From: Phycisphaerales bacterium
GTDB lineage: Bacteria; Planctomycetota; Phycisphaerae; UBA1845
DNA length: 64,000 nucleotides
Reading direction: 5' to 3'
Assembly (NCBI GenBank): GCA_020852275.1
Contig: JADZBE010000023.1
Location: 1 to 64,000 of the forward strand
A model generated the notes under the pieces. It saw nothing but the letters and a program-made list of their open reading frames with translations. It was not told the DNA's origin and did no database searches. This document shows positions 45,496-49,866 of the stretch, piece by piece; positions within the stretch are counted from its first letter, which is position 1; every line of letters begins with the position of its first letter. Both the position numbers and the translations under genes were made by a program.

Positions 45496-46632
45496 ATGGC
45501 AAAGGTGAGGTTCGTTCTTGCCTGTCTGGCCGCGGTCGCGTTTGCTGTCAATGCCAGCGCGAAGGAACTGCAGCCGATCGGCAACCCGGTCAAGGTCATG
45601 CCGGAGAAGGCAATGCAGGTCCAGTTCAACGCGGACGGCACCGTGACGCCGCTGTCGGACTGGTACTACTTCAACGGCAACAATGGCGGCGGGACCGGGA
45701 CCGCTGCCAGCAGCTTGAACCTGTTTGACTCGTTCCAGAACGACGGCAACGACTGCATCACGGGCGCCGCGCCGGATGGCGGCACCGACTGCGGTCTGCC
45801 GGGCGGCGGCTATCGCTGGTTCTTCGGCGTCAGCTACTGCAACATGTTCACGGTGGGCAGCTTCAGCGCCACGTCCACCACGGCGGGCGATCGTCTCGAA
45901 GCCGGCTGGTACTGGTATTGCAGCGGCAGCGGCACGGAAGAGTGCTTCGTTGCCGTGTTCACCGGCACGCCGTTCGATGACACCTGCAACGCGGCCTACA
46001 CGCTGGGCGCGGGCGTCGTCCTCGGCTTCGGCCCGTTGACCTGCAACGGCGGCGGCTACTTCTACACGGACGTCTGCCTGTGCGATTTCGGTCTGGCGCT
46101 GGACATGTTCACGGACACGTACGCGTCGATCGGCGGCGTTCTGGCCCAGGCGTTCGACGGTCAGAACCTGACGCTGGCCACCTGCGGTCAGTTCATGCTC
46201 TGGGGTGCGGATGGCGGCAACGGCGGCACCGACCTGGCCGGCTCGCATGGCGACATCAGCTATGACGACGACAATCCGGTCGACGGCACGCACACCCCGA
46301 TCGACGAGTGCTACAGCACCGCGTTCGGCATCTGCCCGGACCCGATCCACTTCATGGTCGGCGTCGGCACCTGCGGCGGCCCCGCCTGCGACGCGGTGGT
46401 CACCAAGGTGAAACCGAAGAAGGGCCCGCCGTGCACGGTTGTCGTGGTCAAGGGCACCGACGCCACGTTCGGCGACACGTTCGACGTGACGCTCAGCACG
46501 GGCGCCACCAAGTCCGCGACGGCCAACGATCGCGGCAAGTGGAAGGCCAAGTTCACGGGCCAGAACATTGCCAACGGCGGCAGCGTCACGGCCTCCGCCT
46601 GCGGTTCGAGCAAGACGGGCACCTGCAGCTAA
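45496..46632 (+). CDS. Secreted Gly/Thr/Cys-rich protein, probably well expressed
   Basis: The start ATG 45496 is 9 bases after a perfect AGGAGG, and a strong terminator follows the stop. This arrangement is rare in the window and suggests high expression. The 378-residue product has a clear signal peptide (VLACLAAVAFAVNASA). The mature protein is rich in Gly, Thr, Asp and aromatic residues, with about 20 Cys in spaced pairs (for example DCITGAAPDGGTDCGL, CNGGGYFYTDVCLCDFG). This suggests disulphide-bonded beta structure. The last 85 residues form a separate basic beta domain (KVKPKKGPPCTVVVVKG then GTCS). No family is recognised. A cell-surface or extracellular structural role is plausible but inferred. 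Confidence 0.7.
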   Translation: MAKVRFVLACLAAVAFAVNASAKELQPIGNPVKVMPEKAMQVQFNADGTVTPLSDWYYFNGNNGGGTGTAASSLNLFDSFQNDGNDCITGAAPDGGTDCGLPGGGYRWFFGVSYCNMFTVGSFSATSTTAGDRLEAGWYWYCSGSGTEECFVAVFTGTPFDDTCNAAYTLGAGVVLGFGPLTCNGGGYFYTDVCLCDFGLALDMFTDTYASIGGVLAQAFDGQNLTLATCGQFMLWGADGGNGGTDLAGSHGDISYDDDNPVDGTHTPIDECYSTAFGICPDPIHFMVGVGTCGGPACDAVVTKVKPKKGPPCTVVVVKGTDATFGDTFDVTLSTGATKSATANDRGKWKAKFTGQNIANGGSVTASACGSSKTGTCS

Positions 46633-46664: not shown

Positions 46665-46708
46665 AAGGGGGCCGCGGTGGGAACTTCCCGTCGCGGCCCT
46701 TCTTTTTT
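46665..46708 (+). terminator. Rho-independent terminator
   Basis: A long GC-rich hairpin is followed by TTCTTTTTT. The left arm is AAGGGGGCCGCGGTGGG and the right arm CCCGTCGCGGCCCTT, with loop AACT and one small bulge. It lies 33 bases after the stop of the secreted-protein gene. Confidence 0.9.
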
Positions 46709-47017: not shown

Positions 47018-47269
47018 ATGTCGTGTTCGACGGGGTGCGAGATGCCGGCGGAAATGAGAACAACCGCTTCGAATCTGAAGGTTCCTCCCGCGCCGGCGCC
47101 TGCCCCATCCGGCGCGGGCACAGGCGGAGCTGAGGCTTGCGGGGCTGAGGCGGACGAGCCCCGGCGCAGGGAAGTGCTCGTATCCGTGGGATCGAAGCTG
47201 CTCAAGGCCGCGCCGCTGATTCTCGTCCTTCGGCCGGGGAAGGCGTACGCGAGCAACCATTCCAGTTGA
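47018..47269 (+). CDS. Candidate substrate peptide of the PqqD/HprK-like cassette
   Basis: This open frame of 83 codons (ATG 47018, or ATG 47042/47054 nearer a purine-rich stretch) precedes the PqqD gene. Its TGA overlaps an in-frame TTG of that gene (TTGA). The N-terminal half is Ala/Pro-rich. The C-terminal part, RRREVLVSVGSKLLKAAPLI then LVLRPGKAYASNHSS, resembles the basic-plus-hydrophobic 'R-R-x-x-L-x-K-A-A-P' core seen in short peptides encoded beside PqqD-type chaperones. That resemblance is from memory and the family cannot be named. It has no catalytic motif. It may be the precursor handled by the three downstream genes, or a small exported protein. Confidence 0.45.
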   Translation: MSCSTGCEMPAEMRTTASNLKVPPAPAPAPSGAGTGGAEACGAEADEPRRREVLVSVGSKLLKAAPLILVLRPGKAYASNHSS

Positions 47270-47286
47270 GTTGGAGCCGCTTCTGC

Positions 47287-47622
47287 ATGGATGCAAGTCC
47301 CGGACCGTCCAACGCCGCCGGTTCTCCGCGCGGCCTGTCAGCCCGTTCGCGATTGCGCCATGCGCGACCTGCGATCCTGCGGGAACTGGACGGTGAGGCG
47401 GTGCTCTATGATCCCGCGGCGCACGAAGCGATCTACCTCAACGCGGCCGCGATGGACATCTGGCGCGCCGCGGATGGCGCCGCCGACGTGGAGTCCGTGG
47501 TCGTCCACCGCGCCGCATCGAGCGGCGTGGACATCGAGGAATGCCGCGCGGATGTGGTTCACGTGGTGGACGCCATGACGCGCCACGGCTGGCTGAAGTG
47601 GGAAGCGAGCGCCGCGAAATGA
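47287..47622 (+). CDS. PqqD-family peptide chaperone
   Basis: The 111-residue product has a PqqD fold over residues 35-110: ILRELDGEAVLYDPAAHEAI, then YLNAAAMDIWRAADGAADVE, and a C-terminal helix DVVHVVDAMTRHGWL. PqqD domains bind the leader of a ribosomally made peptide and present it to modifying enzymes. The combination with an HprK-related kinase and a nucleotidyltransferase matches what TIGRFAMs call, as I recall, the HPr-rel-A system. ATG 47287 has GGAG 11 bases upstream; an upstream TTG 47266 overlapping the previous stop is possible. Its TGA overlaps the kinase ATG (ATGA). Confidence 0.82.
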   Translation: MDASPGPSNAAGSPRGLSARSRLRHARPAILRELDGEAVLYDPAAHEAIYLNAAAMDIWRAADGAADVESVVVHRAASSGVDIEECRADVVHVVDAMTRHGWLKWEASAAK

Positions 47623-48713
47623 GCGAGTCGAGCGCGGCGAGCTTCGAGCTTTCGATACGCGCCGCAACGGTCGATGCAACGAGCGGCGGGTTGCCGCTCT
47701 CGAAGCTCGGCCGCCACCGCACGGATACCCGCGCGATTCCCCCGGCGCGGCGGACGGCCTGCTACCGCATCGGCGAGGTCGAGGTCGGGCTGCGGACATC
47801 GCTGCGGGACGTAGCGGCCGACTTTCACGGCCTGTACGGCATGCATTTCGTGGGCCGCGCGCTGCCCGGGGCGATCGAGGTCGAGGTGGACCGCTGCTGG
47901 AACCCGCGGTGCCGCGGCGCGTACCGCATCCGCACCGACGGCGAGGACCGTTTTATCGTGCGCCGCCGGCGGTCCGTGCTTCCGCACGTGGAGTGGGCGA
48001 TCAACGCCGCCGTGGCGGCTTCGCTGCCGCGCTTCTACCAGGTTCACGCGGGCGTGGTGGCGCGGGGCGGGGCGGGGCTGGTCCTTCCGGCGAATCCGCA
48101 GAGCGGGAAATCGACGCTGGTAGCGCGGCTGGTGACGCGCGGATGGGACTACCTGTCAGACGAGTTCGCGCTGATCGATCCGCGGACGCTGCACCTGTCG
48201 CCGTACCCTAAGGCGGTGTGCATCAAGCACGGGTCGTTCAGCGTGCTGGAAGGGTTCGGGGTGCGGCTGGACCGCTACCCGGAATATGACAAGGGTGCGA
48301 AGGGTCGCGTGCGACTGATCCATGCCCAGGACCTGCGCCCGCATGAGACGCCGTCCAGCGTGCCCGTTCGCATGGTCGTCTTTCCCCGGTACGCGGATCG
48401 CGCGCAGCCCGTGATCCGCCCCGTGTCGCGCGCCTTCGCGCTGTTCCAACTCTTGAACGTCTCGTTCACACTCTCGCGATTTCGCGCCCGGGCGCTGGAC
48501 ATCCTCGGCGAAGTGGTCCGCGGCGCGGCGTGCTATCAACTGGAGACGGGCGGGATCGACGCGGCGTGTGATGCGATCGAGCGGCTGTGGGATGAGGCGG
48601 CGCCGCAGGAAGCGGGCGGGGGAGTCGATGCGAAAGGGGAGACAAGTCACGCGGTCGACTCGCCACGGGAGACGGCGCGCCCGGGGGAAGCCTGTGAGTG
48701 GATCCATGCGTAG
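47619..48713 (+). CDS. HprK-related kinase
   Basis: The 364-residue product carries a P-loop in the HPr-kinase manner: HAGVVARGGAGLVLPANPQS then GKSTLVARLV (Walker A near residue 160). LSDEFALIDPRTLHLSPYPK follows. The N-terminal half is unlike true HprK. HprK-like proteins in peptide-modification clusters phosphorylate a residue of the precursor. A true HPr/PTS role is unlikely because no ptsH is nearby. ATG 47619 overlaps the PqqD stop by 4 bases. The 3' end overlaps the nucleotidyltransferase gene by 8 bases, so the cassette is translationally coupled. Confidence 0.82.
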   Translation: MSESSAASFELSIRAATVDATSGGLPLSKLGRHRTDTRAIPPARRTACYRIGEVEVGLRTSLRDVAADFHGLYGMHFVGRALPGAIEVEVDRCWNPRCRGAYRIRTDGEDRFIVRRRRSVLPHVEWAINAAVAASLPRFYQVHAGVVARGGAGLVLPANPQSGKSTLVARLVTRGWDYLSDEFALIDPRTLHLSPYPKAVCIKHGSFSVLEGFGVRLDRYPEYDKGAKGRVRLIHAQDLRPHETPSSVPVRMVVFPRYADRAQPVIRPVSRAFALFQLLNVSFTLSRFRARALDILGEVVRGAACYQLETGGIDAACDAIERLWDEAAPQEAGGGVDAKGETSHAVDSPRETARPGEACEWIHA

Positions 48714-49866
48714 CTCACGAAAGACCGGCCGTGACTCTCGCTGCCCGGACGCGATCGGGGCGGGGCTTGCCCTGTGCCTGTCCGGCGGCGGGGAGCGGGT
48801 GTCACATGAGTGGCACCGAAGGAAGCTGTGGGACCGGGCCGCGTGCGTCGCCTGCGAGCTGGGCGTCGGCGGATTCCTGGAGGAAGAGACCCGGCGCGGC
48901 GGCACGGCGATTCCTGATTCCGCTCGGGATATCCTGCTGGCCCATCGCGAGCACCTGCGCGCGGCCAACACCGAGAAGCTCTGGCGATTGCGCGGCGTGC
49001 TCGAAGCGCTGCGCGGGGCAGGCGTGCCGTGCCTGCTGCTGAAGGGCGCGGCGCTGAACGCGGCGCTGTACCAGCGCCTCGACCTGCGAGGGATGTCGGA
49101 CGTGGACCTGCTGATTCGCGCCGGCGACGTCGAGCGCGCGCTGACCGCGCTGGAAGGCATCGGCGCGCGACCGGAGCGCGAGCCGCTGCACCGCGACCTG
49201 TTTCCCCGCTTCTACTACGAGCAGCCCTTTGTTACCGCGGATCGCCCGGCGCTGCGGCTGGATGTGCACGTCAGGCCGTTTCGACCCGTGCGGTATCAAG
49301 CCACGGTTCCCCGGGAGGCCATGTGGCTGGCGCCGCGGCGCATCGAATGCGGCGGCGTGTCCGCGCTGACGCCGGGGCTGGAGGAAACGCTGATCCACCT
49401 CTGCGTTCACGCGGCCGGGCACGGGCTGGAGCAGCTTCGCTGGCTGTACGACATCCTGTTCTTCTTGAGGCGGCACGGTCCGGAACTGGCGGTTGAGCGG
49501 ATTGCCGCGTGGGTGACGGCGTGGCGGCTGGCGTATCCGATGCGGCTGGCGCTGCATTGCGTGGCGCGCGTGTTCCATGAAGTGCCCGTCGTGGCATCCG
49601 TGCTGATTGAACGACTTGGCGCGCGCCCCGGCATTCGGGATTGGCTGGCGATCCGGCAGGCGCCGCGGGATGCCGACGACCCGCTGGGGCACGTGCTGGT
49701 GGACACGATCTGCCTTGACGGGCTGCGGGATCGACTGGCGTATCTGTCCATGCACCTGCGCCCGTCGGATCAACACCTGTCGTCGCGAACGGGAGGTGGC
49801 AGACTCGGCTGGCGCTGGGCGGCGCAAGGGCGGCGACTCCTGCGCGCCCTGGCGAAAGCCGGTTGA
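48706..49866 (+). CDS. Nucleotidyltransferase family protein (NTP_transf_5-like)
   Basis: The 386-residue product has a nucleotidyltransferase signature near residue 115: LLLKGAALNAALYQRLDLRG then MSDVDLLI, with the D-x-D metal pair. A third acidic strand follows (ALRLDVHVRPF). A helical C-terminal part contains HLCVHAAGHGLEQLRWLYDI, typical of the PF14907-type family. Members of this family occur in lasso-peptide and exosortase-linked clusters beside HprK-like kinases and PqqD, where they are thought to attach a nucleotide or sugar-phosphate to the modified peptide. ATG 48706 overlaps the kinase gene; an in-frame GTG 48694 is an alternative. The last gene of the cassette. Confidence 0.82.
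   Translation: MRSSRKTGRDSRCPDAIGAGLALCLSGGGERVSHEWHRRKLWDRAACVACELGVGGFLEEETRRGGTAIPDSARDILLAHREHLRAANTEKLWRLRGVLEALRGAGVPCLLLKGAALNAALYQRLDLRGMSDVDLLIRAGDVERALTALEGIGARPEREPLHRDLFPRFYYEQPFVTADRPALRLDVHVRPFRPVRYQATVPREAMWLAPRRIECGGVSALTPGLEETLIHLCVHAAGHGLEQLRWLYDILFFLRRHGPELAVERIAAWVTAWRLAYPMRLALHCVARVFHEVPVVASVLIERLGARPGIRDWLAIRQAPRDADDPLGHVLVDTICLDGLRDRLAYLSMHLRPSDQHLSSRTGGGRLGWRWAAQGRRLLRALAKAG

Follow-up and report, generated by a model that had tools for sequence, protein, structure and literature searches.

What a PqqD-like protein, an HprK-related kinase and a nucleotidyltransferase act on, when they are encoded one behind the other and preceded by a small open reading frame, is the question raised by positions 47018-49866 of a 64,000-nucleotide stretch of a Phycisphaerales genome (contig JADZBE010000023.1, hereafter the window). 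A preliminary description, made from the sequence alone, took the small frame as the candidate precursor of a modified peptide. Whether this frame (hereafter T) is a gene, and what its product would become, are considered here by comparison with homologous loci and with known peptide-modifying systems.

The cassette and its small frame

The cassette consists of T and genes for a PqqD-like protein, an HprK-related kinase and an NTP_transf_5 nucleotidyltransferase, and translations and family searches place the four frames exactly where they had been described (Table 1). The likely start codons, as read from the sequence, are the ATGs at 47287 (PqqD), 47619 (kinase) and 48706 (nucleotidyltransferase). 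T ends at 47269, 17 nt 5' of the PqqD ATG, the kinase start overlaps the PqqD stop as ATGA, and the nucleotidyltransferase ATG overlaps the kinase stop at 48711-48713. The kinase and nucleotidyltransferase genes thus each overlap the preceding gene, like coupled genes, in agreement with the translational coupling proposed earlier. The cassette is set apart by a terminator-like hairpin upstream and, from 49882 onwards, by DinB and ABC-2 genes on the opposite strand; sites of the hairpin type are no more numerous in the region than expected from shuffled sequence. In NCBIfam and Pfam scans, the adjacent genes encode DinB, an ABC-2 permease and a protein (45496-46632) assigned to no family; as had been noted, none of them is a cyclase, protease or radical SAM gene. 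The secreted-looking 378-aa protein directly upstream, which is closed by the hairpin, has no significant match in Pfam or NCBIfam. The genome carries a single HprK_rel_A gene and a single copy of the T motif, both within the cassette; three weaker NTP_transf_5 matches (C26:64518-64775, C38:81012-81254 and C38:92863-93069) are distant from this only HprK_rel_A gene.

Table 1. Positions of the genes, precursor elements and upstream boundary in the window
Feature	Positions	Strand	Remarks
Terminator-like hairpin, upstream boundary	46667..46701	+	16-bp stem and T tract
Precursor T	47018..47269	+	at most 83 aa; alternative starts 47042, 47054; start uncertain
Arg-Arg of twin-arginine-like leader	47165..47170	+	invariant in 33/33 aligned T
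K-A-A-P-L-I, degenerate [Y/F]xxPx[VIL] RRE-binding motif	47204..47221	+	Pro invariant
A-Y-A, predicted leader cleavage site (-3/-1 Ala)	47243..47251	+	AxA in most relatives
Core S-N-H-S-S, predicted Ser phosphorylation site	47252..47266	+	few residues after AxA
PqqD-like RRE	47287..47622	+	111 aa; PF05402
HprK-related Ser kinase	47619..48713	+	364 aa; TIGR04352
NTP_transf_5 nucleotidyltransferase	48706..49866	+	386 aa; PF14907

Codon composition gives little support for the T frame as a gene, and conservation was therefore used as the test. Six of the seven nearest kinase relatives have a short frame before PqqD with a common C-terminal pattern, and in the seventh (L038) the locus is cut by a contig end. 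NCBIfam and Pfam scans place the window's own T in no family. A T profile matches the window at 47159-47254 (E = 7e-11), the only match in the genome, and a profile built from 20 seeds also finds such frames next to kinases outside the seed set. Among 397 genomes of the class, mostly MAGs, the kinase and a 32-residue profile of the C-terminal segment are both present in 59 and both absent from 333, with the kinase only in four and the profile only in one (P about 2e-64, a figure that ignores the relatedness of the genomes). In 642 kb of sequence there are 57 hits that pass the threshold, and every one is encoded on the same strand as the kinase, no more than 4 kb away from it. T is present in 55 of 67 oriented Phycisphaerae loci, most of the 12 misses being near contig ends.

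The pattern of substitution points in the same direction. In several pairs of relatives, the motif/leader and tail of T have dN/dS values of 0.01-0.12 at dS of about 0.6-2.5, these pairs being taken beyond the window's genus, within which divergence is too low; the N-terminal part of T is loosely constrained. Judged from the purifying selection on the C-terminal segment and the co-occurrence with the kinase, T is a real gene. The earlier view of the small frame as a precursor tied to the cassette is thereby upheld, and the frame is conserved in homologous cassettes with substitutions far from random. It had also been asked whether such a frame always precedes the enzymes. This does not hold exactly: some relatives have T 2 kb further upstream, others have it after the kinase or joined to the kinase in a fusion.

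Leader and tails of the precursor

T is composed of a variable acidic N-terminal part, a conserved leader and the tail SNHSS. The Pro of the leader motif is invariant in the 33 aligned T sequences and is the only universal motif residue. The pattern [YFW]xxPx[VILF] is found in 50 of 57 T sequences, and Lys occupies the aromatic position in the window and its genus. A leader motif of the [Y/W]xxPx[VIL] type is what PqqD-type RREs bind in the leaders of lasso peptides and LPPs (PMC13381572). The segment K-A-A-P-L-I-L had been regarded as the core of the peptide; this was wrong, as its position in the leader and the identity of its Pro with the RRE-motif Pro make it a leader segment, a degenerate YxxPx[VIL] motif not invariant beyond Pro.

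The leader also resembles a Tat/Sec export signal in its sequence, with a twin-Arg, a hydrophobic stretch and AxA, the two Ala being at offsets 13 and 15 from the first residue of the motif in most relatives. TAT_signal profiles match two to three of the 33 T sequences, weakly, and the Lys or Arg inside its hydrophobic stretch would be uncommon in a Tat signal. TatC is present in the same genome. Its match (C33:156749-157654) is split (model positions 1-135 and 133-208) by about 260 bases within one 447-aa frame, possibly an insertion in TatC.

The tails fall into two classes. Tiny tails (31 loci) have no Cys, are mostly 4-10 residues long and end with Ser in 24 of the 31. The tails at 24 further loci are Cys-rich, with a C...C...CC...C...C pattern like that of inhibitor cystine knots and weak matches to toxin ADO1 (E = 0.008) and to conotoxin-like Pfam models. 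Counted from the first residue of the motif, the first Ser of the tail has offset 17 in 25 of 31 tiny tails and offset 18 in 15 of 25 knottin-type tails, and in both classes a second Ser often follows three residues on (17/20 or 18/21). The Ser residues of the window's tail are at offsets 16, 19 and 20. Related cassettes thus appear, from their sequences, to use the same leader on knottin-like mini-proteins. At loci L117 and L128, a single open frame holds both precursor and kinase, which would yield a kinase-leader-knottin fusion.

The classes also differ in their linked genes. A VKOR-DsbA gene (PF07884, PF01323) is linked to 18 of 24 knottin loci vs none of the 31 tiny-tail loci (Fisher's exact test, P = 9e-10), an association that comes down to few independent events because the kinase tree needs only about three class changes. 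It was for this reason set aside as a strong statistical link, and the pairing of knottin tail and VKOR-DsbA, biochemically coherent, is taken as suggestive. GT2 genes are linked in 14 knottin loci and GT4 genes in 11, and both are absent from all 31 tiny-tail loci. A reading of the window's tail as a knottin that has lost its domain (SNHSS against GSNHSC) was unsupported, as the kinase tree has tiny-tail forms at its base too.

Larger arrangements were seen among the knottin-type loci. Extended clusters with precursor, PqqD, kinase, NTP_transf_5, GT2 and GT4 occur at L085 (967-7633, minus strand), L091, L103, L123, L124 and L141, the VKOR-DsbA fusion being present in all of these except L141; clusters of the L085 type look like a pathway to a secreted, disulfide-bonded glyco-miniprotein. 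At L152 (2894-5495; G676:C1:2913480-2915871), a tandem array of five knottin-type precursors, all with this leader, lies about 330 kb from the kinase cassette of that genome.

Enzymes and comparison with known systems

The PqqD-like protein matches PF05402 with 42 bits (cut-off 23.4). The best PDB matches of its AF2 model (pLDDT 78) are complexes of the lasso B1 protein TbiB1 with leader (TM 0.75-0.80 by target), TbiB1 and PqqD structures being the top matches to its winged-helix RRE fold; the model therefore favors the leader-binding role assigned to it in the preliminary description. The kinase matches HprK_rel_A (TIGR04352) over the full model with 163 bits, and its structural model has a fold of the PEPCK/HprK/P type with modest TM-scores. 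The Walker-type GK[ST]T, the upstream His and the Asp of the HprK/PEPCK fold are all present, and H169, G189-K190, T192, D207, E208 and K229 (numbering of P0003) are invariant in 71 of 71 kinases. The fourth residue of the H-K-D-D motif of lasso kinases is apparently Glu here (D207-E208). The nucleotidyltransferase matches PF14907 with 147 bits (cut-off 31.2); K159-G160, R174, D178, D180 and H234 are invariant in 58 of 58 sequences, and D232 is found in 56. Searches of PDB sequences with the kinase, PqqD and the nucleotidyltransferase returned no useful match.

In its mode of action the cassette probably resembles the linear polyphosphorylated peptide (LPP; lppA-K-B-S-D-N) system of Bacillota (Popov et al. 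2026; PMC13381572) as well as the tailoring section of lasso clusters of the paeninodin type. With LPPs it shares a discrete RRE, an HprK-like kinase, an NTP transferase, the lack of a cyclase, a conserved leader with variable cores and, in relatives, the [Y]xxPx[V] motif of that leader. LppA has the motif residue at -16, is cleaved after -1 (offset 15) and is phosphorylated on Ser3, at offset 18 (PMC13381572). The -1 Ala of the cassette is likewise 15 residues past the first residue of the motif, as is T-1 of LppA, the first Ser (offset 17 in tiny, 18 in knottin tails) is within one to two residues of the place of Ser3, and S is often followed by N, as in A-Q-S-N of LppA. Within the LPP precursor motif YxxPxVLxHQxIxFETxxS, the relatives have YxxPx[VI] and Ser at matching offsets but are without HQxIxFET, and the window has Lys for Tyr. 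LPPs are described as Bacillota-restricted and patchy, their core genes including those for the SpI peptidase and the MsbA transporter (PMC13381572), whereas SpI-like leader peptidase and MsbA-like transporter genes are absent among the scanned families beside the window's cassette and do not recur across the 31 tiny-tail loci. The cassette further differs in being planctomycete and near-universal in one family, in its twin-Arg/AxA signal-like leader and in the knottin-like cores with VKOR-DsbA of its relatives.

Paeninodin- and pseudomycoidin-type lasso clusters likewise have a PqqD-like B1, an HprK-like kinase acting on the C-terminal Ser and a nucleotidyltransferase acting after the kinase, but the cassette is without a macrolactam synthetase, B2 peptidase or lasso core; neither an Asn-synthetase-like cyclase nor a B2 peptidase is found in it or recurs in homologous loci. 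The cassette also resembles the NCBIfam HPr-rel-A system (TIGR04352 for the kinase, TIGR04353 for PqqD), for which we found no paper under the name "HPr-rel-A"; its PqqD-kinase-NTP order is found in Sphingomonas too, where an RR-leader protein also precedes the genes. The window proteins are nevertheless under both curated cut-offs (kinase, 163 of 200; PqqD, 15.7 bits of 35). Because of these scores and of the missing SpI peptidase and transporter, the cassette is not filed as a member of HPr-rel-A or LPP. An export signal in the leader of an RRE-dependent precursor has a precedent in the DUF2063-RRE/DUF2282 systems, in which it is a Sec signal (PMC12710340); these have other enzymes, and the cassette has a twin-Arg and a defined YxxP motif.

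Proposed pathway, alternatives and distribution

We consider it probable that the cassette is a RiPP-type phosphopeptide system with T as its precursor. The gene content, the co-occurrence and linkage of T and kinase, the kinase and T shared frames at L117 and L128, the purifying selection, the RRE motif and its spacing, the intact active sites with invariant catalytic residues, and the RRE and kinase folds argue for this reading. PadeK and PsmK phosphorylate a C-terminal Ser, and PsmN is reported to add hexoses to the phospho-Ser of pseudomycoidin (PMC9266682); by analogy, the C-terminal Ser of 24 of the 31 tiny tails would match the target of PadeK/PsmK. From such parallels we infer the binding, the site of phosphorylation, the nucleotidyl or sugar transfer and the export route. 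PqqD would recognize the T leader via the Pro motif (K-A-A-P-L-I here, Y/F-x-x-P-x-V/I/L in relatives) and present T to the kinase, which would phosphorylate, perhaps repeatedly, the Ser just past AxA in S-N-H-S-S, the first Ser being predicted by analogy. The nucleotidyltransferase may then add a nucleotidyl or sugar group to the phosphate, as PsmN appears to do. As the leader resembles an export signal, a cassette without transporter or protease could leave export to the housekeeping Tat or Sec machinery and cleavage to signal peptidase I. The Lys in place of the motif aromatic in the window's genus and the first tail Ser at offset 16 instead of 18 speak against this reading, and the few and weak TAT_signal matches against Tat export. 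LppN was inactive in its heterologous host (PMC13381572), and the nucleotidyltransferase step is therefore unproven even in the LPP model system. The most likely product is a linear Ser-phosphorylated peptide. The earlier expectation of a phosphorylated or nucleotidylated product agrees with this, but "of a different kind" was too broad, given that a linear phosphopeptide system with this enzyme set was described from Bacillota in 2026 (PMC13381572).

The export-like leader could also mean that T is simply a small protein, exported by Tat/Sec or anchored in the membrane, that merely shares an operon with enzymes acting on another substrate, and some T-like proteins do have larger tails (270 aa in Vibrio, 161 aa in Sphingomonas). 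We regard this as unlikely: Tat substrates are common, yet of the 334 genomes in the class that lack the kinase, 333 are also without the T profile, the Pro motif is a known RRE-binding motif, the kinase is fused to T in some relatives, and no other candidate substrate recurs beside tiny-tail cassettes. Little likelihood is likewise given to a signaling role, in which the kinase would reversibly phosphorylate T in the way that HprK/P acts on HPr, with the nucleotidyltransferase reading or resetting the state of T, making T a regulatory membrane peptide rather than an exported natural product. The HprK-type fold and the near-universal, vertical presence, usually in one copy, fit such a housekeeping function better than a natural-product cluster, but the cores are variable and some are knottin-like, and the product expected from the VKOR-DsbA and GT2/GT4 glycosyltransferases of the knottin loci is secreted, disulfide-bonded and possibly glycosylated. 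That the cassette is an LPP or lasso-type cluster whose peptidase, transporter or cyclase is encoded elsewhere in the genome would account for the shared RRE, HprK and NTP set and the shared leader motif and spacing. It is very unlikely, considering the reported restriction of LPPs to Bacillota with SpI and MsbA as core genes, the lack of any such gene recurring beside tiny-tail cassettes, and leaders without HQxIxFET.

The phosphopeptide reading has consequences beyond this locus. The kinase is found in 43 of 46 sampled genomes of the window's family, usually in one copy, and by its sequence distribution the cassette is inherited vertically within one planctomycete family as a core trait. RR-leader proteins are encoded as well at HprK-rel-A-like plasmid loci of proteobacteria (Sphingomonas, Vibrio, Leisingera and Methylobacterium), which makes it probable that this layout is general. 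We tentatively propose, with somewhat less than even confidence, a RiPP class that is a core trait of the planctomycete family and present in proteobacteria, with a leader that is both RRE dock and twin-arginine export signal, and with phosphorylated, probably sugar- or nucleotide-bearing cores ranging from a five-residue tail to cystine-knot mini-proteins with a dedicated VKOR-DsbA. An annotated but functionally blank trio of HprK-related kinase, PqqD and NTP_transf_5 would thereby gain a defined substrate and a predicted modified residue, and a set of knottin-like mini-proteins of bacteria, equipped with dedicated machinery for disulfides and possibly for sugars, would be brought to light. 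Phosphopeptide RiPPs, so far described as Bacillota-restricted, would extend to Planctomycetota and probably Pseudomonadota, and would here appear less as a patchily distributed weapon than as a core trait conserved in one family.
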